Origin: Burkholderiaceae bacterium
Lineage (GTDB): Bacteria > Pseudomonadota > Gammaproteobacteria > Burkholderiales > Burkholderiaceae_E
Assembly: GCA_023954045.1 (NCBI GenBank)
Contig: JAMLIR010000001.1
Coordinates: forward strand, 310,001-374,000
DNA: 64,000 nucleotides
Direction of reading: 5' to 3'
Positions 25,018-39,701 of this stretch are shown piece after piece; within the stretch, counting starts at the first letter, position 1, and every line of letters begins with the position of its first letter. The notes under the pieces were generated by a model. The model did not search any database. It was not told the origin of the DNA and was given only the letters and a program-made list of their open reading frames with translations. The translations under genes were made by a program, and so were the position numbers.

Positions 25018-25761
25018 TCAGCGCGCTGATCGCACCGGCTTCGCCGCACGCTCGCGAGTTGTCCGCTTGCCGGTCGATCTTGCCGGCTTCCGCGCGGCCG
25101 TGGCCGCGACCTCGGTTGCGACAAGCGATTTCCAGTGCTTCCACCCCGATGGTGTCAACAAGTCGTTGAGGAACGAGGTCAGACCTTCTTCGATGTATCC
25201 GGCAAGCGAGATGGTTCCGGCGAAGTGCCAATGCTTCAACGCCCACCCATGCGCGAGGAACACGAGCCTGAACGTGAGCAGATCGACGTTCACCGAGCGG
25301 AAGTAGCCGGCCCTGACGCACTCCTCGATCGGACCGGAAATCAGCTTGTTGGTCTCGAGCTCCATCTTCTGGATCGCCTTGCGCAGCTCGGGACGCAGCG
25401 AGGCGCTCTCCCGGTAGCCGACCACCGTGGCGCCGACGTTCTTGTCGACCGCCTCGCAATACGCACGCACCGCGGTGCAAAATCTCTGCAGCGGATCGAT
25501 CACGCCTTCGAGCCGGCGCGGGATCTCGCGCTGGTAGGTACGGAACAGCGACATGAAAACCAGGAACAGCACGTCCTCCTTGTCCTTCACGTACGAGTAG
25601 ATCAAACCCGAACTGAACCCTGCTGCGTCCGCGATGTCCTTGATCGTGGTCCGGTAATAGCCATTGACCGCGAAACGACGGACCGCGGCGTCGATGATCT
25701 GCTCGCGGCGCCGCTCGATTCGCTCGGGATCCTCGATGCTGCTTTCGATGATGATGTCCAC
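25018..25761 (-). CDS. TetR-family transcriptional regulator of the acyl-CoA/liv regulon
   Basis: A 247-residue TetR-type repressor. The helix-turn-helix lies at about residues 33-62 (FAVNGYYRTTIKDIADAAG then SSGLIYSYVKDKEDVLF). The C-terminal ligand domain resembles FadR/KstR2-like acyl-CoA responsive regulators, and the tail is basic (ARKPARSTGKRTT). The start is a GTG at 25761 with AAGGAAA before it. It diverges from an acyl-CoA ligase over 220 bases that contain two copies of a 16-bp palindrome; further copies precede the oxidoreductase operon and livK. It therefore probably represses itself and these operons until an acyl-CoA or acid inducer binds. Inducer unknown. Confidence 0.92.
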   Translation of the reverse strand: MDIIIESSIEDPERIERRREQIIDAAVRRFAVNGYYRTTIKDIADAAGFSSGLIYSYVKDKEDVLFLVFMSLFRTYQREIPRRLEGVIDPLQRFCTAVRAYCEAVDKNVGATVVGYRESASLRPELRKAIQKMELETNKLISGPIEECVRAGYFRSVNVDLLTFRLVFLAHGWALKHWHFAGTISLAGYIEEGLTSFLNDLLTPSGWKHWKSLVATEVAATAARKPARSTGKRTTRERAAKPVRSAR

Positions 25762-25827: not shown

Positions 25828-25843
25828 GAATGACCAGTCATTC
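25828..25843. promoter_or_regulatory. TetR operator candidate 1
   Basis: GAATGACCAGTCATTC, an inverted repeat GAATGA-N4-TCATTC with perfect arms. It lies between the tetR start and its inferred -35 element, so it fits autorepression. Same 16-bp form at 31144 and 39523. Confidence 0.75.
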
Positions 25844-25868
25844 GAATCTTCTGCTGCCCGGCGGGAGG

Positions 25869-25933
25869 TGTCAATTCCGCGGGGCGGCCCGCGTCAGGTG
25901 ACATTGACACGCTTGCAGAAAATGAACGATCAT
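25869..25933. promoter_or_regulatory. divergent promoter pair for tetR and acyl-CoA ligase
   Basis: Two TTGACA boxes face outward: one on the minus strand (complement of 25869-25874) towards tetR and one on the plus strand at 25904-25909 towards the ligase. The plus-strand box has GATCAT (4 of 6 to TATAAT) 18 bases downstream at 25928-25933. The minus-strand -10 is weak. Each promoter is accompanied by one operator copy. Confidence 0.45.
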
Positions 25934-25935
25934 TC
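25920..25935. promoter_or_regulatory. TetR operator candidate 2
   Basis: AAATGAACGATCATTC, one arm base off the consensus GAATGA-N4-TCATTC. It overlaps the predicted -10 box of the rightward acyl-CoA ligase promoter, a position expected for repression. Confidence 0.65.
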
Positions 25936-25981
25936 AATCGACGGGGAGCCGCGCAGCCATGAAACCACGCCCGAGAATCCG

Positions 25982-27631
25982 ATGAATGCCCTACCGACCG
26001 CGGGTAACTGGACACCCGCCGAATGGGCACGAACGTACTGGCCCGGCCGCCTGCTCACCGACTACCTCGACGAAGCAACTGCGCGCCATCCCGACAAGGT
26101 CGCCCTGACCGGTCGCAACAGCGTGAGCGACGTCACGGTGACGCTGTCCTGGCGCCAGCTGCGGCGACTCGTCGATCGCATAGCGGCAGGCCTGGTCGGG
26201 CTGGGCGTCGGGAAGGCAGACGTGGTCGCCTGCCAGCTACCGAACTGGTGGGAGTTCGTCGCGCTGCACCTTGCATGCGTGCGCATCGGTGCATTGACGA
26301 ATCCGCTGATGCCGATCTTCCGGCAGCGCGAACTTCGCTACATGCTCGGCTTCGCCCGGGCGCGCGTGCTGGTCGTTCCACGGAACTTCCGCAACTTCGA
26401 CTATCCGTCGATGGTCGCCACGCTGCGCGCCGACCTGCCCGAGCTGCGCCACGTTCTCACCATCGGTGGAACCGGTCCGGACTCCTTCGAGGAGGTGCTG
26501 ATCGCCCGCCGCTGGGAAGACGAGTGCGACACGTCCACGCTGTTCGCGCAACGCCGCCCACACCCGGACGACGCGGTGCAACTGCTGTACACGTCGGGCA
26601 CCACAGGCGAACCCAAGGGCGTACTGCACAGCTCGAACACGCTGCTGAGCATTCTCCAGCAATATGCGAAGCGGCTGCACATCACTGGCGACGATGTCAT
26701 CCTCATGGCCTCGCCGATGGGCCACCAGGCCGGCTTCATGTACGGGCTGATGATGTCGCCCATGCTCGGGGCCAAGCTGGTGTTGCAGGATATCTGGGTG
26801 CCCGAAGAGGCGGCAAGGCTGATTCGGGACGAAGGGGTCACCTATACGAAGGGCTCGACCCCCTTCCTGGCCGATCTGACGAACACGCCTGCGATCGATC
26901 GGTACGACATCGGCACGCTGCGCACTTTCGTGTCGTCGGGCGCGCCGATCCCGCGCGTATTGGTCGAGCGGGCCAGCCAACGCCTGGGCGCCGCGATCAT
27001 CTCGGCCTGGGGCATGAGCGAGACCGGATCGGTCACCACCACGATTCCGGGCGATCCGGACGAACGGATCTTCGGCACCGATGGCGTCGCGCTACCGGGC
27101 ATGGAGGTACGGGTGGTCGACGCTGCCGACGCAGTGCTGCCGAGCGGCAGCGAGGGCAGACTTCAGTGCCGGGGAATCGGCAACTTCCTTGGCTACTTCC
27201 TGCGACCGGAGCTGTCACAGGCGACCGCCGACGGCTGGTTCGACACGGGCGACCTGGCGGTGATGCGCGACGACGGCTATATCCGGATCACGGGCCGCGC
27301 AAAGGACATCCTGATCCGCGGCGGCGAGAACGTGCCGGTGGTCGAGGTCGAGAACGCGCTCTACCGCCATCCCGCCATCCGCGAGGTGGCCGTGGTCGGC
27401 ATGCCCGATGCGCGACTCGGCGAACGTGCCTGCGCGTTCGTCAGCCTGCACCCCGGCCACGCGCTGGATCTGCCGGGGATGACCCGCTTCCTCGAAACAC
27501 AGCAGATGGCGCGACAGTATTTTCCGGAGAGACTCGAGGTGCTCCCCGAACTGCCTCGCACGGCCAGCGGCAAGATCCAGAAGTACCTGCTGCGCGATCT
27601 CGCCCGCACGCTCGCACCGACATCGACCTGA
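25982..27631 (+). CDS. AMP-dependent acyl-CoA synthetase/ligase, paralogue 1
   Basis: A 549-residue ANL-superfamily ligase that activates a carboxylic acid to its CoA thioester through an acyl-adenylate. The AMP loop is [11 protein letters not shown], motif A5 SAWGMSETG, the hinge DGWFDTGD, then GRAKDILIRGGENV, and the catalytic C-terminal Lys lies in TASGKIQK. Overall it resembles cyclohexanecarboxylate-CoA and medium-chain acyl-CoA ligases. The ATG at 25982 is used; an ATG at 25922 in the same frame lies inside the operator. It diverges from tetR and is closely similar to the ligase at 31393, sharing QLPNWWEF and NPLM segments. Substrate unknown, possibly alicyclic or aromatic acid. Confidence 0.92.
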   Translation: MNALPTAGNWTPAEWARTYWPGRLLTDYLDEATARHPDKVALTGRNSVSDVTVTLSWRQLRRLVDRIAAGLVGLGVGKADVVACQLPNWWEFVALHLACVRIGALTNPLMPIFRQRELRYMLGFARARVLVVPRNFRNFDYPSMVATLRADLPELRHVLTIGGTGPDSFEEVLIARRWEDECDTSTLFAQRRPHPDDAVQLLYTSGTTGEPKGVLHSSNTLLSILQQYAKRLHITGDDVILMASPMGHQAGFMYGLMMSPMLGAKLVLQDIWVPEEAARLIRDEGVTYTKGSTPFLADLTNTPAIDRYDIGTLRTFVSSGAPIPRVLVERASQRLGAAIISAWGMSETGSVTTTIPGDPDERIFGTDGVALPGMEVRVVDAADAVLPSGSEGRLQCRGIGNFLGYFLRPELSQATADGWFDTGDLAVMRDDGYIRITGRAKDILIRGGENVPVVEVENALYRHPAIREVAVVGMPDARLGERACAFVSLHPGHALDLPGMTRFLETQQMARQYFPERLEVLPELPRTASGKIQKYLLRDLARTLAPTST

Positions 27632-27649
27632 ACGCGTGCGGTGCCCTGC

Positions 27650-28366
27650 TTACGAGGGCATGTAGGCCCCCCCGTTGACCGGCACGATCGCGCCGTTCAT
27701 GTAGGTGTTCGACGGACCGGCCAGAAAGCGGATCACGCGCGCGATCTCGTCCATGCGCGCAAGCCGGCGCATCGGGTTCGCCTGGGCCATCCGTTCGCGC
27801 TGGCGGGCCTCGAACTCTCCCGACATGCTGCCTTCGATCAGTCCGGGAGCGACCGCATTGCACAGCACCCCGCGTCGCGCGCCCTCGAGCGCATAGGTCT
27901 TGGTCAGCGCGTGCACGCCTGCCTTGGACGCGCCGTAGGCCGGGTGTACGGCACTGCCGCCGATCTGACCGGAGACCGAGCCGACATTGACGATTCGGCC
28001 ACCGCCGGCGCGTGCGAGTGCGGGCAGCGCCGCCGCGCAACCGTGCCAGGTGCCCGTCAGGTTCACCGCGAGAATCCGTTGCCATCCGGATTCATCCGCA
28101 TCGAGCACGGGGCAGGCGACGAAGATACCGGCCGCGTTGACCCAGGCCTCGAGCCGCGTCTCGACCGACGCCTGCTCCGCCAGATCGACGACCGCACGGC
28201 GGTCGGTGACGTCGACGCGCACCGGGACGACCCGTGCCGTAGCGTCGATCTGTGCGACGTCGGCGGCGAACACCGTGAAGCCATCGTCGAGAAATCCGCT
28301 GCAAAGTGCCCGGCCGAGGTCTCCGGCAGCGCCGGTGACGACGACTCCCCTGGGGCGATCGTTCAT
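27650..28366 (-). CDS. SDR-family dehydrogenase
   Basis: A 238-residue classical SDR with TGAAGDLGRA near residue 11, FAADVAQ after beta 2 (acidic, NAD-type), NAAG, Ser in VGSVSG, and YGASK as the active site. The C-terminus reads GAIVPVNGGAYMPS. The ATG at 28366 has GGGAG seven bases upstream; the ATG at 28372 is too close to the same site. It is the last gene of the leftward operon oxidoreductase-thioesterase-acyl-CoA dehydrogenase-SDR, where it may act as a hydroxyacyl-CoA dehydrogenase. It converges with the ligase at 25982-27631. Confidence 0.9.
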   Translation of the reverse strand: MNDRPRGVVVTGAAGDLGRALCSGFLDDGFTVFAADVAQIDATARVVPVRVDVTDRRAVVDLAEQASVETRLEAWVNAAGIFVACPVLDADESGWQRILAVNLTGTWHGCAAALPALARAGGGRIVNVGSVSGQIGGSAVHPAYGASKAGVHALTKTYALEGARRGVLCNAVAPGLIEGSMSGEFEARQRERMAQANPMRRLARMDEIARVIRFLAGPSNTYMNGAIVPVNGGAYMPS

Positions 28367-28406
28367 TGGCATTCTCCCTGTCGCGACAAGCGCCGCGCCG
28401 AAGAGC

Positions 28407-29558
28407 TCATGCGTTGCGCCCCATTCGGTCTTCGAGCTCGCGCAGGATTACCAGGTGCTGAATGTCGTTGGTGCCCTCGTAGATGCGGCACACGCGCGCA
28501 TCGCGATAAAGGCGCTCGACAGGGTAGTCGCGCAGGTAGCCGTAGCCACCGAGTACCTGGATCGCTTCGGTGCACACCCATTCGGCCGCTTCCGAGGCAA
28601 CCAGTTTCGCCATACAGGCCTCCATCAGGCATGGTCGCCCCTGATCGCGAAGCTGCGCAGCGTGCAGCACCAGTTGGCGTGCCGCCTCGATCCGGGTGGC
28701 CATGTCGGCGATCCGGAAGCCCACGGCCTGATGCTCGACGATCGGCTTGCCGAAGGTCACCCGCTCGCGCGCGTAGGCGTGCGCCGCGTCGAGCGCCGCC
28801 TGGGCGATTCCCACCGCCTGTGCCGCGATGCCGATGCGACCGCCTTCGAGATTCGACAATGCAATCCGGTATCCCGCACCCTCGTCGCCCAGACGCAGGT
28901 CTTTCGGTATGCGCAGATCCTCGAAGTGAATCTGGCAAGTGTCCGACGCGCGCTGCCCCATCTTCGATTCGACGCGTCCGACGACGTAGCCGGGCGTTGC
29001 GGTGGGCACGATGAACGCGCTGATCCCCTTGCGCCCCCGCTCTGGCGCGGTCACCGCGAACACCAGCGCGACGTCGGCGTTCTTGCCGGTGGTGATGAAT
29101 TGCTTCGTGCCCGACAGCACGTAGTCGTCGCCCACCCGGCGCGCCCGGGTCGTCAGCGCCCCCGCGTCGGAGCCGCCCTGCGGCTCGGTCAGGCAGAATG
29201 CCGAGAGCATCTCGCCCTTCGCCATCGGCACGAGGAATCGTTCCTTTTGCGCGTCGGTGCCGAAGCTGCTGATCGGCATGCACCCCACTGAATTGTGCCC
29301 GCTCATGATCGTAGCGCAGGCCGCATCGCCTGCGGCGATCTCCTCGAGCGCCAGCGCGAGCGATACCGCATCCGCGCCGACGCCGCCCCAGCGCTCTGGC
29401 ACCGTCATGCCGAGAAGACCGAGCTCACCCATGCGACGCAGCGCTTCGCGCGGGAACACGCCCCCTTCGTCCCATTCCGCCGAATGCGGCGCAAGCTGCT
29501 CGCGCGCGAAGGCGCGAGCCGTGCCCTGGATCATCGCCTGCGATTCCGTCAGGATCAT
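28407..29558 (-). CDS. acyl-CoA dehydrogenase
   Basis: A 383-residue flavoenzyme that introduces a double bond next to the CoA thioester carbonyl. N-terminal helical, central beta ([13 protein letters not shown] contacts FAD and substrate) and C-terminal helical domains are complete. The catalytic base is Glu361 in [10 protein letters not shown], and [19 protein letters not shown] is the expected preceding helix. The ATG at 29558 overlaps the thioesterase stop by four bases. It would oxidise the acyl-CoA made by one of the ligases and pass electrons to ETF, whose genes are not in the window. Confidence 0.95.
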
Positions 29559-30019
29559 GCTCTCTCATCCCTGATGCGCGCGCCGTCGGCGTGGGGGCGG
29601 CGCAGTTTCTTCCACACTCCCGCAGCAGACAGCACCACGGCACCGTGGTGGCTCAGGCTGCCGCGGACGAAAACCAGCGTACGCGTGATCTGGGTCACCG
29701 TCGCCTCCCCCTCGATCCAGTCGCCGGGCTTCGCCGCCGACACGAAGTCGCAGTGCAGGCTCACGGTGACCACGGGGGTTTCCAGCCCGACCGCCTGCAT
29801 CACGGTCAGGCCCAGCACCTGGTCAGCCAGCGTCATCAGCATGCCGCCATGCACCGTCTCGCGAACGTTCCCGTGGCGCGACTCGGCGAGGAAACCGAAT
29901 CGCACGAGGTCCCCTTCCCGAACATACAGCGGGCCGACGGCTTCCGCGAAGCGCCCGTCCGCGATGCGGCACGGGACGAAGCCGGCGGGCACGGTGGGCA
30001 CGTGCGAGTGCGTGATCAT
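29555..30019 (-). CDS. PaaI-like hotdog thioesterase
   Basis: A 154-residue hotdog-fold protein of the PaaI/acyl-CoA thioesterase type. The motif [20 protein letters not shown] holds the HGG and the catalytic acidic residue of the family, and [20 protein letters not shown] is the typical second strand region. The start at 30019 overlaps the oxidoreductase stop (ATGA), and its own stop overlaps the acyl-CoA dehydrogenase start in the same way. It probably releases CoA from unwanted or stalled intermediates of the pathway. An open extension upstream is out of register with the oxidoreductase gene. Confidence 0.9.
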
Positions 30020-31041
30020 GTCGAGGACGCCTCCGACTCGCGCTGCCGCCAGAGGTCGGTGGTCAGCACGACCTTCCCTTTGACGCGCCGGTCGCGAAGC
30101 TCCGCCATGGCTCGGGCCGCCTCGTCCAGCGGATATGCCCCAGCCAGCTCGGTACGCAACAGGCCTTTCTCGTAGAGGGCGAACAACTCGGCTTGCGCCC
30201 GTCGCATCCACTCCGGATGCCATTCGCGGTAGTCGCTCCAGTGCAGACCGATTACTGCAACGTTCCGGAGCAGGATGCGGTTCGCAGGGATATTCGGAAT
30301 TCGGCCACCGGCGAATCCGAGCACCACAAGCCGCCCCCGCCACGCAAGCGAGCGAAACGCGCCGTCGAAGACGTCGCCGCCGACGACCTCGAGGACGACA
30401 TCGGCACCCTTTCCGCCAGTCAACGCGTGTACGTCGTCGCGGATCGAGTTCCGCAGGTCGGCTCCGGACAGGTCGACAATCGCATCGGCGCCCGCAGCTC
30501 GCGCAACGGCACCCTTCTCGGCAGTGCTCACGCCTGCGAGCACGCGCGCGCCCAGCGCCTTGGCGAGTTGCACGCAGCCCAGGCCGACGCCGCCAGCTGC
30601 CCCGGTCACGAAGACGACTTCGCCGGGCTGCAGGTTCGCGCGCTCGACCAGCGCGAAATACGCCGTCTGGAAAACGAGTGCGAAGCCTGCGGCCACGAGG
30701 AAATCCATGCCCCGAGGCAGGACGAAGCAATTCGCCTGCGGTGCCAGCAGTCGTTCGCAATACGCCCCGCTCTCCACGAGAACGAGGACACGATCGCCCA
30801 CCGCACAGGTGTGAACACCTTCCCCCACGGCCGACACGATGCCGGACGCTTCCTTGCCGGGGATGAATGGCGGCGTCGGCAGGATCTGATACCGCCCACC
30901 TGTCACGAGGAGGTCCGGAAAGTTCACCCCGGCAGCCACGACGTCGACGACCACCTCGCCCGGCCCCGGCACGGGGTCCGGCCAGTCCTGCAGGCGCAGC
31001 GCCTCGATGGCACCGAACGCATGCGCGACTACCGCTTTCAT
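30016..31041 (-). CDS. NADPH:quinone oxidoreductase/zinc-independent MDR alcohol dehydrogenase
   Basis: A 341-residue medium-chain reductase of the quinone oxidoreductase/enoyl reductase branch, without structural or catalytic zinc cysteines in the usual places. N-terminal GroES-like domain (MKAVVAHAFGAIEALRL) and a Rossmann domain with VTGAAGGVGLGCVQLAKALG. Related enzymes reduce quinones or the double bond of enoyl-CoA or enones. The ATG at 31041 has GGAGG seven bases upstream. It heads the four-gene leftward operon, and a TetR-type operator lies about 100 bases upstream at 31144. Confidence 0.91.
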   Translation of the reverse strand: MKAVVAHAFGAIEALRLQDWPDPVPGPGEVVVDVVAAGVNFPDLLVTGGRYQILPTPPFIPGKEASGIVSAVGEGVHTCAVGDRVLVLVESGAYCERLLAPQANCFVLPRGMDFLVAAGFALVFQTAYFALVERANLQPGEVVFVTGAAGGVGLGCVQLAKALGARVLAGVSTAEKGAVARAAGADAIVDLSGADLRNSIRDDVHALTGGKGADVVLEVVGGDVFDGAFRSLAWRGRLVVLGFAGGRIPNIPANRILLRNVAVIGLHWSDYREWHPEWMRRAQAELFALYEKGLLRTELAGAYPLDEAARAMAELRDRRVKGKVVLTTDLWRQRESEASST

Positions 31042-31143
31042 CGTGAGGCCTCCAGCCGTCGGGTTAGTGAAGGCATGCGACCCACCACCGTCGCGTCGGC
31101 GGCACGAGGATGGGGGAGCCTGTTGCTGAATGACTGTGTCGTT

Positions 31144-31159
31144 GAATGACTGTTCATTC
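31144..31159. promoter_or_regulatory. TetR operator candidate 3
   Basis: GAATGACTGTTCATTC with perfect arms, extended by one more matching base on each side. The same half GAATGACTGT recurs 16 bases upstream at 31128-31137. It lies about 100 bases before the leftward oxidoreductase-thioesterase-dehydrogenase-SDR operon and 234 bases before the rightward ligase. Confidence 0.75.
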
Positions 31160-31238
31160 ATTTTATTTGGTACCCTGCCTGCATGTCAAGGAAACGCGAC
31201 ATGCCGGAACAACGGCGCAGCCCTATACTCGCCACATC

Positions 31239-31254
31239 GAATGAGCGGCCGTTC
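31239..31254. promoter_or_regulatory. degenerate TetR operator candidate 4
   Basis: GAATGAGCGGCCGTTC: left arm exact, right arm matches TCATTC at four of six positions, spacing kept at four bases. It lies on the side of the second acyl-CoA ligase and may control it; weak on its own. Confidence 0.35.
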
Positions 31255-31392
31255 AATATGTACGTCTCCTTCCTAACAGTGCGCATCGCCAAAATGGGCA
31301 TGTGCGCGCTCGAGCTATCCTACGACACCGAGGAACCGCGCGAACACGTGCAGGCAATTCGTGGGTAGCCGACTGAACCGAGGACCCAGCAG

Positions 31393-33036
31393 ATGGATTT
31401 CGACGCGATTCTGATTCCGCCACGCCGGGCCGCCATGGTCGCGCAGCGACACTGGCGCGACCGCACCATCAACGACGCCCTCGACGCCTGCCTGGCGAAC
31501 TGCCCCGACAAGCCCGCGCTGAAAGCACTCTCGGTGGAACGAGGCACGACGCGCAGTTTCACCTACCGGGAACTCGCGACACTGGCTGACCGGATCGCGG
31601 TCGGTTTCTCTCGCCTCGGCATCGAACGCAACGACGTCGTGTCTTGCCAGCTGCCCAACTGGTGGGAGTTCACGCTCGTCTACCTTGCATGCTCGCGCAT
31701 CGGCGCCGTGATCAATCCGCTGATGCACATCTTTCGCGAACGCGAACTGTCGTTCATGCTGGCCCATGGCCACAGCAAGGTCGTCATCGTTCCAAAGCAG
31801 TTCCGCGGCTTCGACTACGAGCAGATGCTGCGTGGCCTGCAACCCACACTGCACGACCTGCGTCACGTGCTGGCTGTGGGCGGCGAGGGCCCGGACAGTT
31901 TCGAGGCGCGCCTGACCACGCCGGCCTGGGAGTGCGAAACCGACGCGCCCCAAATCCTGAGGCGCGGCCGCCCGCACCCCGACGATGTGATGCAGCTGAT
32001 CTACACGTCCGGCACTACCGGCGAGCCGAAAGGCGTCATGCACTCCGCCAACACAGCGATGTCGAACATCGTTCCGTACGCGGAGCGCATGCGATTGTCC
32101 AGCGAGGACGTCGTGCTGATGGCCTCTCCGATGGCCCACCAGACCGGATTCCTCTATGGCCTGATGATGCCGATCATGCTGCAGGCCCGCGCCGTGCTGC
32201 AGGACATCTGGGAACCGGCGCGCGCCGTCGACCTGATTCGCGACGAAGGCGTCACGTTCACCATGGCTTCCACGCCCTTCCTGGCGGATCTTGCGCGGAC
32301 CGTGTCGCAGTCCGGCAAGCCGATTCCCAGCCTGAGAACCTTCCTTTGCGCGGGCGCGCCGATCCCCGGGCCACTGGTCGAACAGGCCAGGGAGGCGCTG
32401 GGCGCGAAGATCGTCTCCGCATGGGGCATGACCGAGAATGGCGCGGTGACGACGACGCTGCTCGACGACGACGACGAGCGCTCGGTCAATACGGACGGCT
32501 GCCCGCTCCCGGGCATGGAGGTACGCATCGCGGACCTGGATGGGAAACCTCTTGCCGCAGGAACGATCGGCAGGCTGCTGGTTCGTGGCTGCTCGAACTT
32601 CGGTGGCTACCTGAAGCGCCCTCACCTGAACAGCACCGACGCGGACGGCTGGTTCGACACGGGCGACCTCGCCGTGGCGGACGCACGCGGGTACATCCGG
32701 ATCAGCGGTCGTACCAAGGACGTCATCATCCGGGGCGGAGAGAACATTCCGGTGGTCGAGGTCGAGGCCCTGCTGTACCGACATCCATCGGTCGCTCAAG
32801 CGGCCATCGTCGGCTACCCCGACGAGCGACTCGGTGAGCGAGCCTGCGTATTCGTGGTCACCAAACCCGGCCAGACACTCGACTTCGCGTCGATGATCGG
32901 GTTCCTGAAAAGCCAGAAGCTCGCCACGCATTATCTTCCCGAGCGGCTCGAAATCCGCGATGCGATGCCTGCGACTCCCTCCGGCAAGATCCAGAAGTTC
33001 AAGCTCCGCGAAATGCTGAAGGTGGAGCCCAAGTGA
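31393..33036 (+). CDS. AMP-dependent acyl-CoA synthetase/ligase, paralogue 2
   Basis: A 547-residue ANL-superfamily ligase, clearly paralogous to that at 25982-27631. The P-loop is [12 protein letters not shown]5 SAWGMTENG, hinge DGWFDTGD, and the catalytic Lys is in TPSGKIQK. Similar to cyclohexanecarboxylate-CoA ligases. GAGGACC lies before the ATG at 31393. Conserved differences from paralogue 1 in the acyl-pocket region ([11 protein letters not shown] against [21 protein letters not shown] against AWGMSETGSV) suggest related but different acids. It is convergent with the CaiB-SDR gene, with 27 bases between the stops. Confidence 0.92.
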
Positions 33037-33063
33037 CGCAAACCTCCGATCCGGCGGCCGACC

Positions 33064-34941
33064 TCAAGGGATGCAGGCCCTGCCGCTGACGTCGAGCACG
33101 GCGCCACAGACGAAGCTCGCACCCGGCGAGCACAAGAAGGCGACGGGCCAGGCGATCTCTTCCGGGCGCGCGAGCCGAGGCACCGGCATGGTTCCCGGAG
33201 CCGACTCGTCAATGTCGGCGAGCATCGACACGGCGGTCCGGCCCAACGCCAGGCCGTTGACCAGCACCTGTGGTGCGGCGCTGCGAGCCAGCGATCGAAC
33301 CATCGTGTCCAGCGCAGACTTCGAGCCGGCATCCTGAAGCGGGGAACTCGTGCGGCTCCCGCCAATGTGTGTCGTATCCGAACCGATCAGCACCAGTCGT
33401 CCCCGACCGCGCGCCTTCATCCGGGGAATCAGCGCGAGCGCCAGGCGAGCCGGCGCGCGAACGTTCACGTCCATCGCGAACTCGAAGTCGTCGTCCCAAG
33501 CCTCGTCATTCCGGTCGCTGCCCGGCGAGACTTCCGCGTTTAGCACGGCTGCGTCGATGTCCCCGACAGCGTCGCACAGCCGATCGATCTCACGGCGCGA
33601 GCCAATGTCGCACGCGAGGAAGACGTGCTCGCCGCCGTCGACGCGTAGAGCCTCCAGGAGGCCAGCCACCGGCAGACTATCGGCCAGGACGAGATCTGCG
33701 CCCAATCCCGCGCAAAGCCGGGCGGTCGCCTGTCCGATTCGGCCCGAAGCACCGGTCAGGAGGATTCGCATGCCACTCAGGTCGTAGGGTCGCGGCGCGC
33801 AACTGCGCGCGCCTACCCATTGTTTGCGCCGATTCAACGGGTCGAGAGCCGGAAACGGGCGCTCCCTGCTTGCGTCACGCAGGCCGTCGGCGACCGGAAC
33901 CGGCAGGGCCGGCATCGCAAAACCTCGCGCTGCAACGACCCGATCGAACAGGCCGCGCCCCACGAACGCGGAATCGGCGAAAGCCTGTTCGAGAGACTCG
34001 ACTACGGAGACACACGCGTCGGTGCCGGCAAAGCGCTGACGCCAATCGGCAGCAGTGCGCGCTGCGATCCGCTCGGCGACCTTGCGAATCGTGCTTGCGG
34101 GATCGACTCCATCGTCGCGGTCTGCTTCGGCAAGCCCGATCCCGTCGCAGAACGTCTGCCAGAATCGTTCCTCGATCGGGGCGGCGGCCAGGTACTCGCC
34201 GTCGGCCGTCCTGTAGATCCGGTAGCGCGGCGAGCCACCTGTCGTCAGTTCGGCTCCTGGGCGCGGCCAGCGCCCGCCAGCCAGGCCCGCCGAGATCCCC
34301 CAGTACGCGAAAGTGAACAGGTTGTCGCACATCGCCACATCGACGTGGCAGCCTCGGCCAGTGCGCGCCCGCTGCTGTAGTGCGAGCAGGATGTTGATGA
34401 CGGCCGGATAAGCGCCGGCCCCGATGTCGGCTGCGAGAACCGGCGGCAAGACGGGCGCACCATCGCCTGCCCGGCTCAGCCCGAGGATGCCTGTCTCGGC
34501 CATGTAGGTCAGGTCGTGCCCCGCCTTCAGGGCGCGTTCGCCGGTCTGGCCGTAGCCGGTGATCGAACAGTAGATCAGGCCTGGATTGTCGGCGCGAAGC
34601 GCCTCGTAGCCGAACCCGAGGCGCGCCATCACGCCAGGCCGGAACTGCTCGATGACCACATCGGCGGCCCGCGCGAGCTCGCGAACATGCGCGCGATCAC
34701 CGTCGTTCTTCAAGTCGGCGCACAGGCTCGTCTTGCCCCGGTTGAGTAGCGCAAAATTGCCGCTCGCGCCGGCCCACGCGGGTTCATAGCTGCGCATCTC
34801 GTCGCCGACGCCCGGCCGCTCGACCTTGACCACCTCGGCGCCTGCCTCGGCGAGCAGCAGACTGGCCAGCGGCCCTGGAAGCAGGTTCGAGAAGTCGAGG
34901 ACCCTGATCCCCGCGAGCGGCAGCGCGGCGGTCGACTCCAT
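33064..34941 (-). CDS. fusion of CaiB/BaiF CoA-transferase and a degenerate SDR domain
   Basis: A 625-residue protein. Residues 8-365 are a family III CoA-transferase that moves CoA between acids; the catalytic Asp is Asp143 in KAGHDLTY, with ERPGVGD and LNRGKTSLCADLK upstream. From about residue 390 a Rossmann domain of SDR type continues in frame: TGASGRIGQA (396-405) is a good cofactor loop, but NNAG is LNAE (467-470) and the catalytic Tyr of YxxxK is replaced by Asp537, with Lys541 and Ser521 still present. So the second half may bind NAD(P) without classical SDR catalysis. The ATG at 34941 lies 11 bases after the livF stop. It is the last gene of the livKHMGF operon. Confidence 0.88.
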   Translation of the reverse strand: MESTAALPLAGIRVLDFSNLLPGPLASLLLAEAGAEVVKVERPGVGDEMRSYEPAWAGASGNFALLNRGKTSLCADLKNDGDRAHVRELARAADVVIEQFRPGVMARLGFGYEALRADNPGLIYCSITGYGQTGERALKAGHDLTYMAETGILGLSRAGDGAPVLPPVLAADIGAGAYPAVINILLALQQRARTGRGCHVDVAMCDNLFTFAYWGISAGLAGGRWPRPGAELTTGGSPRYRIYRTADGEYLAAAPIEERFWQTFCDGIGLAEADRDDGVDPASTIRKVAERIAARTAADWRQRFAGTDACVSVVESLEQAFADSAFVGRGLFDRVVAARGFAMPALPVPVADGLRDASRERPFPALDPLNRRKQWVGARSCAPRPYDLSGMRILLTGASGRIGQATARLCAGLGADLVLADSLPVAGLLEALRVDGGEHVFLACDIGSRREIDRLCDAVGDIDAAVLNAEVSPGSDRNDEAWDDDFEFAMDVNVRAPARLALALIPRMKARGRGRLVLIGSDTTHIGGSRTSSPLQDAGSKSALDTMVRSLARSAAPQVLVNGLALGRTAVSMLADIDESAPGTMPVPRLARPEEIAWPVAFLCSPGASFVCGAVLDVSGRACIP

Positions 34942-34952
34942 GGCAAGCTGGC

Positions 34953-35648
34953 TCACACCGCGACGTGCTTCTTGAGGTCGGCCATCGACATGCCCTCCAC
35001 GGTGCCCTGATCGACAACCGCACCCTTGGAGAGCACGTAGTAGCGTTGTGCGACCCGATGGACCAGGCTGAAGTTCTGCTCGATCAGCAGGATGCTGGTG
35101 TCTTCCCCGGCAAGCCGGACCAGCGTCGCCGCGAGCTCGTCGACGATCACGGGCGCCAATCCCTCGCTCGGCTCGTCCAGGATCAGCAGCGCGGGATTGG
35201 CCATCAGCGCGCGGCCGATCGCCAGCATCTGCTGTTGTCCCCCGCTCATCGCCGTACCCGGCGTGTCGGCACGCTCCCTGAGGATCGGGAACAAATCGCA
35301 GACCGACTCGAAGTTCCACTTCCCCGGTCGCCCGACCGCGGCACCCAGCGCCAGGTTCTCCCGAACCGTGAGTCCGGGAACGATGCGGCGCCCCTGCGGC
35401 ACGACCGCGATCCCGGCCCGCGCCGCGGTGAAGTGCCTGATCGATGCCTGCGCCTGGCCCTGGAATGCGATCTGCCCGGCACGCACCCTCGCGATGCCAA
35501 GGCATGCGTTGACCACTGTCGTCTTTCCGACGCCATTTCGCCCGAGGATCGCAACCCGTTCTCCAGCGCCGACCTCGAGCGAGACTCCATGGAGGATCCT
35601 GGCCCCGCCGTAGTAACCGTCGACCGACTGCAGCCTCAGCAGCGTCAT
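34953..35648 (-). CDS. livF: branched-chain amino acid-type ABC transporter ATPase
   Basis: A 231-residue ABC ATPase of the LivF type. Walker A GRNGVGKTT (about 36-44), Q-loop VPQGRRIVPGLTV, signature AMSGGQQQMLAIGRAL, Walker B LLILDEPSEGLAP. The start overlaps the livG stop by ATGA. In this catabolic context the transporter more likely imports an aromatic or alicyclic acid than branched-chain amino acids. Confidence 0.94.
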   Translation of the reverse strand: MTLLRLQSVDGYYGGARILHGVSLEVGAGERVAILGRNGVGKTTVVNACLGIARVRAGQIAFQGQAQASIRHFTAARAGIAVVPQGRRIVPGLTVRENLALGAAVGRPGKWNFESVCDLFPILRERADTPGTAMSGGQQQMLAIGRALMANPALLILDEPSEGLAPVIVDELAATLVRLAGEDTSILLIEQNFSLVHRVAQRYYVLSKGAVVDQGTVEGMSMADLKKHVAV

Positions 35649-36355
35649 TCGATGCTCGATCCGAGATAGGCGCGAACGACCTCAGGATTGCCACGGATTT
35701 CCTCGCGCGTGCCTTCCGCGAGAACACGGCCGAGGTTCAGCACCGTGATCCGGTCCGACACGGCGAAGATCACCTCCATGTCGTGCTCGACCAACAGCAC
35801 GGTCACGCTCCAGCTGCTGGCGAGGTCCTTGAGCAGTCGCGCCAGAACGATCGACTCGTTGATCGACAGCCCTGCGGCGGGCTCGTCGAGCAACAGCACC
35901 GACGGGCGCCCGACCAGCGCCAGCGCGAGGTCCAGCCGACGCTGGTCACCGTACGAGATGTCTGCAGCCCGGCGGTCGGCAAGGTCGAGAAGCCCCAATG
36001 CAACGAGCACTTCGTCCGTATTGTCGGTTTCCGCCATCCGCGCTGCCAGCGCCACCTGCTCCCTGACCATCAGGGCCGGGAAGATATTGGTCTTCTGGAA
36101 CGACCGCGCCAGTCCCGCACGGCGGCGCGCCTGCGCCGAGAGGCCGCTGATGTCGCGTCCATTGAAAACCACGGTCCCGCCCGTTGGCCCTCCCCGGCCG
36201 CAAAGCGCGTCCATCAGTGTCGACTTCCCGGCACCGTTCGGCCCGATGAGCCCGCGAATTTCGCCCGGTTCGAGTCGCAGCGAAACCTTGTCCAGCGCGG
36301 CGAACCCGCCATAGCGCCGGGTCAGGTCGATCCCCTCGAGTGCCAGGGTCGTCAT
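35645..36355 (-). CDS. livG: branched-chain amino acid-type ABC transporter ATPase
   Basis: A 236-residue LivG-type ATPase. Walker A GPNGAGKST, Q-loop FQKTNIFPALMV, the signature is ISYGDQRRLDLALAL (a Y-G-D variant usual in LivG), Walker B VLLLDEPAAGL. The ATG at 36355 overlaps the livM stop by four bases; an open extension to 36823 reads through livM in another frame. It works as a heterodimer with LivF. Confidence 0.94.
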   Translation of the reverse strand: MTTLALEGIDLTRRYGGFAALDKVSLRLEPGEIRGLIGPNGAGKSTLMDALCGRGGPTGGTVVFNGRDISGLSAQARRRAGLARSFQKTNIFPALMVREQVALAARMAETDNTDEVLVALGLLDLADRRAADISYGDQRRLDLALALVGRPSVLLLDEPAAGLSINESIVLARLLKDLASSWSVTVLLVEHDMEVIFAVSDRITVLNLGRVLAEGTREEIRGNPEVVRAYLGSSIE

Positions 36356-37383
36356 GCCTTCCTCGCTTCGCGCGAGCGCCGGTTCAGCCGGTTCAGCCGG
36401 TTCAGCAGGCCACTGATGCCCTGAGGCAGCAGCACCGTAACCACGATCAGCATCGCACCGATGATCGCGGGCCAGTGTTCGGTCAGATCGCCCATCGCAT
36501 TCTTGACGACAAAGAAGATCACGGCTCCGAGGGCCGGGCCCCAGATCGCCTGCGGCCCTCCGATCACGGCCATGATCAATGCTTCGCCCGACAGGCTCCA
36601 GTGCAGCGCCCCGGGGGTCACGAAAGCGTTGTAGAGCGCAAAGAGAACGCCCGCCAGTCCACCGACCGCTGCCGACAGCGCGAACACCAGCGCCCGTGGA
36701 ACGAGGGTGTGATAACCGACATAACGGGCCCGCTCCTCGTTCTCGCGGATCGCCACGGTGAGCACGCCGAAATGGCTCCTCGCGACCAGTGTGAGTATTG
36801 CGATGACCGCCACCAGCGCACACCAGGAGACGACGAACATCGACGAAGGTGCCTGGAACAACTCGATGTCGATGCCGAACAGTCGGGCGGGCAAGCGCAC
36901 CGCCATGCCGTCATCCCCGCCGGCGAGGCCTCGCCACCGCAACATGAGTTCGTAAAGCGATTGGGCGACCGCGAGCGTAAGCATCGAAAAGGACAGAGCA
37001 GGCAAGCGAACGATGATGAGCCCGGCGAAGAACGCGAACGCCGCAGGCACTGCGATCGCAGCCAGCACCGCCAACTCGGCCGGCATCGCGTCCAACTTGC
37101 CATTCAGCGCCATCAGGTATGCCGCCATGCCGAAGAAGGCCGCATGGCCGAAACTCGTGAGCCCGTTCTGGCGAATCATGAAGCCGATCGAGGTCGCGAG
37201 GATGGCGTGGATGACCGCCTGGGTCATCAGCGTCAACGCAAGCTGGGAGCCAACCACCCAGGGAACCGCGAAACCCGCGGCAGCAAGCAGTCCGGCCGCG
37301 AGCACGACCGTCGGGGTGCGCCGTTCCGCCGCGATGGAGGCTGCCGCGACTTTGGCCTTGTCTCGCGGAACCGCACTGCTCAT
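36352..37383 (-). CDS. livM: branched-chain amino acid-type ABC transporter permease
   Basis: A 343-residue LivM-type inner-membrane permease with about ten hydrophobic segments. Hallmarks are NGLTSFGHAAFFGMAAY, the ATPase-contact loop VAIRENEERARYVGY and VIGGPQAIWGPALGA. The C-terminus contains a triple Leu-Asn-Arg repeat encoded by three perfect copies of CCGGTTCAG. The ATG at 37383 overlaps the livH stop (ATGA). Confidence 0.94.
   Translation of the reverse strand: MSSAVPRDKAKVAAASIAAERRTPTVVLAAGLLAAAGFAVPWVVGSQLALTLMTQAVIHAILATSIGFMIRQNGLTSFGHAAFFGMAAYLMALNGKLDAMPAELAVLAAIAVPAAFAFFAGLIIVRLPALSFSMLTLAVAQSLYELMLRWRGLAGGDDGMAVRLPARLFGIDIELFQAPSSMFVVSWCALVAVIAILTLVARSHFGVLTVAIRENEERARYVGYHTLVPRALVFALSAAVGGLAGVLFALYNAFVTPGALHWSLSGEALIMAVIGGPQAIWGPALGAVIFFVVKNAMGDLTEHWPAIIGAMLIVVTVLLPQGISGLLNRLNRLNRRSREARKA
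36379..36405. repeat. nine-base microrepeat, three copies
   Basis: CCGGTTCAG three times in tandem inside the end of livM; on the coding strand it gives Leu-Asn-Arg three times just before the basic C-terminus. Confidence 0.9.
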
Positions 37384-38225
37384 TTCCGCGGCCCCGCGAG
37401 TCCTTGAGGGCGCAATCCCAGCACCGCTGCCATGATCAGCAGCGGAATCACCGACGCGACCTCCGGAACGTACACCAGCCCCAGGTTGTGGAACTGCCCG
37501 ATCACGAGCGCGGCGACGAAGGCACCGGTAAAGCTGGTCAACCCGCCTGTAACGACGACGATGAAACAGTCGATGATGATGTAGCCACCCATGGAGGGTG
37601 ACAACGCCATCAGCGGCCCGGCGATGGTGCCCGAGAGCCCCGCGAGCCCAGTCCCGATCGCCACGACGAGCGCGCTGAGGCGATCGGTGTCGACGCCCTG
37701 CATCGCCGTCGTCACCGGGTCCACGCTCGACGCACGGACATACAGCCCCACCTTCGTCGATCTGAGCCAGACCGCGAGCCCCAGCGCGACCGCGATTGCC
37801 ACGGCGATGACGAACAGCCGATAGGTAGGGAACTGCGACCCGAAGAGCGTCACCGACCCGGACAGAGCCTCCGGTGCGGACACCGAGATATAGTCCTTTC
37901 CCCAGATCGTCCGGACGGCGTCCTCGAGCACGAACAACAAGCCAAACGTGACGAGCAGCGTCACGATCGGCTCCTCCCTGGACAGCGGCCTGAAGACGAA
38001 ACGGTCGAGCAGCGCCCCGAAGACCGCAAGCGCCGCGACCGACACGATCATTCCCGTCCAGAAACCGAGATGAGCCGCTGCCGCGTAGGAGACGTAGGCC
38101 CCCAGCATGAAGAAGCTGCCGTGCGCGAAATTCGTCACGCGCCGCAGACCGAAGATCAGGACGAGTCCGACGGCCAGCACGTAGAGAAAGCTGCCGTAGA
38201 CCAGGCCGTTGATTACCTGAATCAT
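37380..38225 (-). CDS. livH: branched-chain amino acid-type ABC transporter permease
   Basis: A 281-residue LivH-type permease with about eight membrane segments. Hallmarks are INGLVYGSFLYVLAVGL, RRVTNFAHGSFFMLGAY and the ATPase-contact region RASSVDPVTTAMQGVD. The ATG at 38225 starts directly at the first membrane segment; an open extension of nine codons lies upstream. It follows livK after 88 bases that contain a hairpin. Confidence 0.94.
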   Translation of the reverse strand: MIQVINGLVYGSFLYVLAVGLVLIFGLRRVTNFAHGSFFMLGAYVSYAAAAHLGFWTGMIVSVAALAVFGALLDRFVFRPLSREEPIVTLLVTFGLLFVLEDAVRTIWGKDYISVSAPEALSGSVTLFGSQFPTYRLFVIAVAIAVALGLAVWLRSTKVGLYVRASSVDPVTTAMQGVDTDRLSALVVAIGTGLAGLSGTIAGPLMALSPSMGGYIIIDCFIVVVTGGLTSFTGAFVAALVIGQFHNLGLVYVPEVASVIPLLIMAAVLGLRPQGLAGPRK

Positions 38226-38251
38226 CCTGCCGGACTCTTCGTCGTGTCCCA

Positions 38252-38267
38252 CCCGCGGCGGCGCGGG
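38252..38267. other. intercistronic hairpin between livK and livH
   Basis: CCCGCG-GCGG-CGCGGG: perfect six-base GC arms and four-base loop in the 88-base gap after livK. No T-run follows. Such hairpins after a binding-protein gene often protect its mRNA or lower expression of the downstream permeases. Confidence 0.45.
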
Positions 38268-38313
38268 GGCGGTACCCGGCCACTCCGCCGCGCGCGGGAA
38301 CCAAGCGCCGGGA

Positions 38314-39510
38314 TCAGAGCTTGCAGTTGGCGTCGGGGCCAGGTGTGGCAGTTTGCGCCGGGACTGTCATCTTGATGGCCGGCCTGAGGGTGCCGTTCAC
38401 GGCCTCCACGATGCCGAAGTAGTTGGGGCCCACCAGTTGGTGATCCTCCTTGCGCATCAGTTGGGTGCCGAGAATCGTCTCGAAAGTGCCTCCCGCCATC
38501 GCCTTGGCAACGTCCGCCGGCTTGACGCTGCCAGCCTTCTTCACCGCCTGGAAGATCACCTGCATGCCGATATAGGTCTCGCCTCCGAAGTTGGTCGGCG
38601 AATCACCCGGATAGGCCTTCGCCCAGTCGGAGACGAACTTCCTGTTCGCGGGAGTGTCGAGCGTCGCGCTGTAGTTGATGATGGTGTTGATACCCTTGAC
38701 GACATCGCCGAGAACCTTGACGGTCCCGTCGGTCGTGAAGCTGATACCGGCAGTGGTGACCTTGTCGAACAATCCGAACTGTTTCGCCTGGCGCGCAAAG
38801 GTGATTGCGTCGCGCCCTGCCAGCGCAACCCACATCCCCTGAGCGCCGGAATCCAGGACCTTCTGGATGAACGCCGCATAGTCGTTGCTGCCGAGGGGAG
38901 GATAATTCTCGGAGACGACGGTCTTCCCGGTTGCAGCGGCGGCGTTGCGGAAGCCCTCTCCGGAGCCCCTGCCCCAGGCGTAGTCGGCCGCCACGATGGC
39001 CCACTTCGCTTCCGACCGCGTGGCCAGCCACGGCTGGATGACCGCAGCATCGGAGTAGTCGGGTCGGTTCACGCGAAACAACCGCGGCTGGCACTGCTTG
39101 CCGGTGATGTCGTTGGCTTTCGTGACCGTTGCGACGTACAGGGCATTCCAGCGACCGAGCATCGGACCGATCGCGAGCACCTCGCTCGAGGCGATCGTTG
39201 CCGTCATGATGTTGTAGCCCTCGAGGGCGAGCTTTTCGGCCTGCTGGCGGGCGAGGTCTGGCTTGGCCTCGGTGTCGAGAAAACGTACCTCGACCTTTCT
39301 ACCGTCGACCCCGCCCGCGGCATTCGCCTCGTTGACCGCGAACTCGACGGCGCGCTTCACTTCGTCGCCGAGCTGGGAGTACGGCCCGGTAAGCGAAGTC
39401 GGCACACCGATCTTCAGCGGCTCCTTCGCGGCCCATGCGCTCGTGGCCAGGACTGCCGAAACTGCGACGGCCGACAGGCCGAGAAACGTCGCCCTCTTCG
39501 AATCGATCAT
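38314..39510 (-). CDS. livK: branched-chain amino acid-type ABC transporter substrate-binding protein
   Basis: A 398-residue periplasmic binding protein of the Peripla_BP_6 family. The signal peptide (MIDSKRATFLGLSAVAVSAV) ends near AWAAK. Next comes LKIGVPTSLTGPYSQLGDE and NEANAAGGVDGRKVE, typical of this family. The ATG at 39510 has GGAGG five bases upstream, and a TetR-type operator lies directly before that ribosome site. First gene of livKHMGF-caiB/SDR. It probably binds the acid later activated by the two ligases; identity unknown. Confidence 0.93.
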   Translation of the reverse strand: MIDSKRATFLGLSAVAVSAVLATSAWAAKEPLKIGVPTSLTGPYSQLGDEVKRAVEFAVNEANAAGGVDGRKVEVRFLDTEAKPDLARQQAEKLALEGYNIMTATIASSEVLAIGPMLGRWNALYVATVTKANDITGKQCQPRLFRVNRPDYSDAAVIQPWLATRSEAKWAIVAADYAWGRGSGEGFRNAAAATGKTVVSENYPPLGSNDYAAFIQKVLDSGAQGMWVALAGRDAITFARQAKQFGLFDKVTTAGISFTTDGTVKVLGDVVKGINTIINYSATLDTPANRKFVSDWAKAYPGDSPTNFGGETYIGMQVIFQAVKKAGSVKPADVAKAMAGGTFETILGTQLMRKEDHQLVGPNYFGIVEAVNGTLRPAIKMTVPAQTATPGPDANCKL

Positions 39511-39522
39511 CGCACCCTCCTT

Positions 39523-39538
39523 GAATGAATGTTCATTC
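39523..39538. promoter_or_regulatory. TetR operator candidate 5
   Basis: GAATGAATGTTCATTC, perfect arms that extend two more bases each side to a 20-base palindrome. It ends three bases from the livK ribosome site, so a bound repressor would block the start of the liv operon. Confidence 0.78.
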
Positions 39539-39701
39539 AATCATGGGGTCCGGGACGTGTCAAGCACTGCGGACGGGCGGGCGGGCGAGTATTGACCGGC
39601 CATTCATTTGCGGTCGACGATGTCGCCTCTTGCACACCAATGAGCCGAGCGCGGCGCCGGTCGTTTGTCCGCGCAAGCTGGCCGGACACCGACGGCGCCG
39701 A

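Follow-up and report, generated by a model that had tools for sequence, protein, structure and literature searches.

We analysed a stretch of 64,000 nucleotides from a draft Burkholderiaceae genome (the window; C1:310001-374000 of G000, a genome of 4,020,733 bases in 50 contigs, 97.16% complete) and found that a rare palindrome, GAATGA-N4-TCATTC, recurs there at the promoters of a tetR gene, acyl-coenzyme A (acyl-CoA) ligase genes, an oxidoreductase operon and a liv import operon. Here and below, other G-numbers denote genomes, C-numbers contigs and L-numbers individual loci. We consider it likely that the palindrome is the operator of the TetR encoded at 25018-25761, which would repress its own gene, the gene of ligase 1, the oxidoreductase operon, the ligase 2 gene aliA and the liv operon, and would be released by an acyl-CoA compound. 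Repressors of the TetR type that govern the breakdown of CoA esters are already known, and repression of one regulon by TetR is well supported here by what can be read in the DNA itself, namely the operator, its promoters, its conservation and its co-occurrence with the regulator.

Scanning of the window returned perfect palindromes at 25828, 31144 and 39523, a copy with one mismatch at 25920 and a degenerate copy, with two mismatches, at 31239, all as the original prediction had listed them, and on the gene map these sites sit upstream of genes. Rather than recurring at random places, the 16-bp motif proved rare genome-wide: five perfect copies were found against 0.034 expected from base composition, the reversed pattern, used as a control, had no match, and the chance of three out of five random sites landing within 13.7 kb is 0.000345. 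Degenerate matches to the 16-mer (up to three mismatches; 15 found, 16.03 expected) were discarded as evidence for the window. The 18-mer TGAATGA-N4-TCATTCA, again with up to three mismatches, gave 7 window matches, two of them the same sites in a shifted register, against 0.91 expected, and none of 100 shuffles reached 7. With up to two mismatches, the refined form TGAnTGA-nYRn-TCAnTCA marks eight distinct places in the genome: four in the window, and others on C11, C34, C18 and C27. Since the reversed control of this form likewise yields two genome matches, the two-mismatch sites at C18:48416 and C27:17882 were set aside as probably due to chance; the 31239 site falls short of the same threshold. 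A half-site at 31128 had also been proposed. Its letters are present, but the proposal lacks support: the half-site has no counterpart among the sites listed for the relatives G005, G014 and L088, half-sites as such not having been searched for. At this place TGAATGACTGT stands twice in tandem, at 31127 and 31143 (window 31127-31160), resembling a duplication of the left half of the operator.

The positions of the operators within promoters are those expected of repressor sites. Read in the direction of the gene, each of the four operators at tetR, ligase 1, the oxidoreductase operon and livK in the window is preceded by a perfect TTGACA, and the operator either overlies the -10 box or directly follows it (Table 1). 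Over the window, G005, G014 and L088 this hexamer, whose probability of occurring in such a stretch is about 0.005, precedes the operator in 4/4 cases at tetR, 4/4 at the oxidoreductase or thioesterase, 3/3 at livK and 2/3 at ligase 1, and it does so as well at a thioesterase-dehydrogenase operon of G015. The aliA or badI-aliA promoters of the window, G014 and G005 lack a clear -35 box and have TATACT right in front of an operator that is degenerate. Because this layout is common to all three, we read the 31239 copy as the operator of the aliA promoter and the counterpart of the relatives' badI-aliA operator; given the same layout, the notion that it is a fragment of a badI relic was dropped. 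At the sites of a TetR paralogue on C34 and C11 (see below), matches to the -35 box are imperfect, five of six letters at best.

The arrangement is kept in relatives, whose TetR is identical to that of the window at 84% (G005), 74% (G014), 77% (L088) and 99% (L086) of positions. G005 and G014 follow the gene order of the window, except that badI is present in both and that no oxidoreductase was found in G005; they carry operators at livK, at the oxidoreductase or thioesterase start and, as a pair, between tetR and the ligase gene, all differing from the 18-mer by 1 to 3 mismatches. L088 retains two sites, one at the oxidoreductase and one at tetR, and L086, a 5-kb contig, both sites of the tetR-ligase gap. 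The ligase of L086 (JAKOVA010000065.1, titled Actinomycetes MAG) is, over 385 amino acids, 100% identical to that of the window, and the contig is probably misbinned.

The operator also travels with the regulator. Among 74 genomes of the family, 14 encode a TetR of this subfamily (E-value limit 1e-40), and the palindrome is found in all 14 versus 8 of the 60 genomes without it (p 7e-10, kinship ignored), while the reversed control had one match across the 74. In a collection of named genomes, the best 80 loci, taken from at least 377 TetR relatives, hold 43 perfect palindromes in 31 loci and a site within one mismatch in 69, the latter figure being without a permutation control. When the six half-site letters were placed in the 59 other possible orders, each order gave 0 or 1 perfect copy in these loci. 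The subfamily occurs, among the matches listed from this collection, in Burkholderiales, Rhodocyclales (Aromatoleum, Thauera) and Rhodospirillales (Magnetospirillum). Across 18 genomes of the genus there are 26 perfect palindromes, 25 of which lie in loci of the window's circuit or of the paralogue's; the remaining one is in G002, a genome without this TetR. That copy (L072:9591) has the spacer AATT and stands between a CoA ligase gene and an IclR-like gene, the latter named by eye from its sequence.

Several observations weigh against the regulon as proposed. The ligase-1 operator of G005 is without TTGACA. L089, whose TetR is 69% identical to that of the window over the whole protein and whose similar gene set is reordered, contains no site within three mismatches of the 18-mer; the two best matches in its tetR gap reach 10 and 9 of 14. 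Eleven of the best 80 named loci have no site within one mismatch, the eight palindrome-bearing genomes noted above lack the TetR subfamily, and related genomes are not independent of one another. Finally, ligase 2 aside, the window enzymes tested stay below the cut-offs for the bad-ali pathway of alicyclic-acid breakdown.

Table 1. Operators, promoter elements and genes of the locus (window positions; aa, amino acids; SDR, short-chain dehydrogenase)
Feature	Position	Strand	Remarks
tetR, presumed repressor	25018..25761	-	247 aa, GTG start; PF00440 TetR_N, PF17932 TetR_C_24
Operator, perfect	25828..25843		at tetR promoter
TTGACA, -35 box of tetR	25869..25874	-	
TTGACA, -35 box of ligase 1	25904..25909	+	
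Operator, one mismatch	25920..25935		on -10 of ligase 1
Acyl-CoA ligase 1	25982..27631	+	549 aa; nearest TIGR03208, below cut-off (729.8 of 792.3 bits)
SDR1	27650..28372	-	short-chain dehydrogenase
Acyl-CoA dehydrogenase	28407..29558	-	
4HBT-type thioesterase	29555..30019	-	
Zinc/quinone-type oxidoreductase	30016..31041	-	
Operator, perfect	31144..31159		immediately after -10 of oxidoreductase operon
Oxidoreductase operon promoter	31160..31189	-	TTGACA, 18 bp, TAAAAT
badI relic	31216..31356	+	tblastn stretch, 24 of 47 residues identical; 3' half convincing
TATACT, -10-like box upstream of aliA	31224..31229	+	layout common to G014 and G005
Operator, two mismatches	31239..31254		counterpart of relatives' badI-aliA operator
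Ligase 2 (aliA), cyclohexanecarboxylate-CoA ligase, AliA type	31393..33036	+	TIGR03208 958.6 bits, cut-off 792.3
CaiB-type CoA-transferase fused to SDR	33064..34941	-	625 aa
livF, livG, livM, livH	34953..38225	-	ABC importer, branched-chain amino acid type
livK-type binding protein	38314..39510	-	Peripla_BP_6
Operator, perfect	39523..39538		on -10 of livK
TTGACA, -35 box of livK	39558..39563	-	17 bp before TTGAAT

The TetR of the window matches PF00440 with 46.7 bits (cut-off 24) and PF17932 with 40.7 bits, above the Pfam cut-off. The original prediction had placed caiB and an SDR gene at the end of the liv operon; both are present, but CaiB and this second SDR form a single open reading frame. 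The match to the fused protein spans 628 residues at 69% in L088; in G005 and G014 only the CaiB part is matched.

The idea of one regulon of about 14 kb at the tetR, ligase, oxidoreductase and liv promoters holds as far as the shared rare operator, its retention in relatives and its place on TTGACA promoters go, but the regulon is not confined to those 14 kb, as perfect sites also lie on C11 and C34. Nor need the regulator be a single one: a second TetR of the same subfamily, 47% identical to that of the window, is encoded beside the C34 site. The C34 site lies between an acyl-CoA dehydrogenase gene and a run of enoyl-CoA hydratase, tetR, second hydratase and ligase genes, and the C11 site (L016:10515) between isocitrate lyase and a run of SDR and TRAP importer genes. 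The latter layout also appears in L068, L069, L074 (no SDR match there), L076, L079 and L080, and may tie the glyoxylate shunt to regulation through the palindrome. In G006, G011 and G014, the hydratases, SDR, dehydrogenase, TRAP importer and TetR form a single stretch behind one operator adjoining isocitrate lyase.

Because the second TetR adjoins a perfect site on another contig, the two paralogues probably share one operator. The core consensus of 21 window-type sites agrees with that of 115 others, the former gathered with up to three mismatches and the latter with up to two. This leads to the strongest alternative, in which the C34 TetR acts on the window sites as well, or is even their main regulator, and two repressors govern one regulon with the window locus as a branch; we give it slightly less than an even chance. 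In addition to the agreement of the consensus and to the operator beside the C34 operon, it draws on L078 (G003:C264, 632-5779), where a livFGMH-oxidoreductase-thioesterase run near to that of the window (LivF 87%, LivH 92.5%) has the same operator and a TetR of 42% identity, and, with less weight because the contig ends just beyond, on G015, where a window-type thioesterase-dehydrogenase operon has a perfect operator and the sole TetR found is 43% identical. Against it, the window encodes a tetR of its own, whose promoter bears two operators that are kept in relatives, and two differences would fit a partial separation of the circuits. At the outer G, A has a frequency of 0.26 in window-type sites versus 0.03 in the others, a lead only, as the mismatch limits were unequal. 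In the recognition helix, the window clade has GLIYSY or GL(I/V)YTY, where the other proteins mostly have GLIYQY (26 sequences).

In its widest form, which we put forward tentatively and would not back at even odds, the proposal is that two diverged TetR paralogues share the operator and run a joint programme, made up of a ring-acid module (AliA, formerly BadI, and the Liv importer) and a core beta-oxidation/TRAP module, with isocitrate lyase on the other side of its operator. From one species to another, an operon would come under a different regulator but retain its operator, and TetR would replace the MarR-type BadR over aliA-badI in these Gram-negatives.

As for the pathway, ligase 2 scores above the cut-off for cyclohexanecarboxylate-CoA ligase, and alicyclic-acid catabolism is therefore the probable function of the locus. 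The gene badI, for 2-ketocyclohexanecarboxyl-CoA hydrolase, lies intact between operator and aliA in G005 (542.5 bits) and G014 (533.9 bits; cut-off 467.6), and a relic of it is left in the window (E 5e-8 in a 40-kb search set; profile match 21 bits). A second, intact badI of the window genome, at C20:8452, reaches 540.1 bits against the same cut-off; it (L182, 7633-9228) comes after a moaC-like gene, outside any recognised bad-ali cluster. No operator within three mismatches was found in about 20 kb each around this gene and around a BadH-like locus (L183), and the BadR-type pattern CAAT-N2-ATTG was absent from both in a search confined to these two loci. None of the 38 matches to BadH in the genome exceeds the cut-off of 431.2, the best being 349.5 at C12, and the window dehydrogenase falls below that for AliB (245.3 of 575.35 bits).

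A further alternative keeps the regulator and operator as described but assigns the locus to ordinary beta-oxidation of fatty acids or aryl-alkanoates. In its favour, the majority of the window enzymes are of generic beta-oxidation type and below the bad-ali cut-offs, the circuit of the paralogue includes a TRAP importer, a pair of enoyl-CoA hydratases and an operator next to isocitrate lyase, and the relatives of known structure include Bacillus FadR. We regard this as unlikely, though not negligibly so, in view of the score of ligase 2, the BadI adjoining it in G005 and G014, the relic in the window and the intact badI on C20. That the palindrome belongs to another regulator or is a chance cluster, with TetR a bystander, would suit its presence in 8/60 genomes without the subfamily and beside the IclR-like gene of G002, but is very improbable against the 14/14 co-occurrence, the 25/26 perfect copies within the two circuits and the failure of permuted half-sites to recur.

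Under the preferred reading, repression by the window TetR, the mechanism that we infer is as follows. The TetR encoded at 25018-25761 would recognise TGAnTGA-nYRn-TCAnTCA as its full operator. Since each operator covers the -10 box or the start of a sigma-70-type promoter, a TetR dimer on four or five promoters, its own included, would block RNA polymerase and hold down tetR, ligase 1, the oxidoreductase-thioesterase-dehydrogenase-SDR operon, aliA and the livKHMGF-caiB/SDR import operon. At low leak, the Liv system would take up some acid, probably an alicyclic one of the cyclohexanecarboxylate type, which the ligases would turn into its CoA thioester; this thioester or a later one would free TetR and turn the gene set on. 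The C34 paralogue would use the same operator next to its own beta-oxidation genes, and the circuits would probably overlap.

The analysis provides a concrete candidate operator for a TetR subfamily, through which its regulons may be read from genomes. It suggests that Gram-negative bacteria have a second way, besides BadR, to control how alicyclic (naphthenic-type) acids are broken down, and the two TetR paralogues, with their possibly shared operator, are a natural example of such sharing between repressors. In the open-access literature we did not find this operator described for this proteobacterial TetR subfamily, nor its position on aliA-badI promoters, where BadR is said to be the rule, nor its sharing by two paralogues; the absence is a weak one, as most subscription papers, those on Bacillus FadR included, lay outside the search. 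A search of the same literature for the operator letters returned nothing that we judged relevant.

Among known systems, Bacillus FadR binds a box, TGAATGA-MTAN-TCATTCA, of nearly the same letters as the palindrome. The relatives of the window TetR with known structure include FadR and KstR2. FadR of Bacillus (PDB 1vi0, 3whb, 5gp9, 5gpc; E about 1e-10) resembles it in sequence and is a TetR repressor of acyl-CoA catabolism, but controls other genes in another phylum. At E 1e-20 no NCBIfam model matches the window TetR, and the C34 paralogue scores 62.8 bits with NF053878, the model of Bacillus FadR, whose cut-off is 200. FadR of Thermus thermophilus, as outlined in PMC5597230, is likewise of TetR type, with a role in acyl-CoA catabolism and a palindromic operator, but its operator is TTRNACYNRGTNYAA. 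FadP of Burkholderia, Ralstonia and Comamonadaceae, of the same order, is a TetR-type protein with a predicted fatty-acid degradation regulon (PMC5343134). The nearest well-studied cases, BadR and MbdR, both respond to a CoA ester of their pathway but have other operators. BadR, which responds to cyclohexanecarboxyl-CoA, controls aliA and badI genes, a role like that predicted for the window TetR, but is of MarR type and has another operator, CAA-N4-TTG; the account in PMC9795900 describes it as general in Gram-negative bad-ali clusters, and TetR-like genes as found in Gram-positive ones. MbdR of Azoarcus sp. CIB is a TetR repressor that, according to PMC4424350, controls an ABC importer, a CoA ligase and a degradation operon from an operator over the promoter and is released by a CoA ester; it differs from the window system in its operator, ATAC-N10-GTAT, and its aromatic substrate, 3-methylbenzoate.

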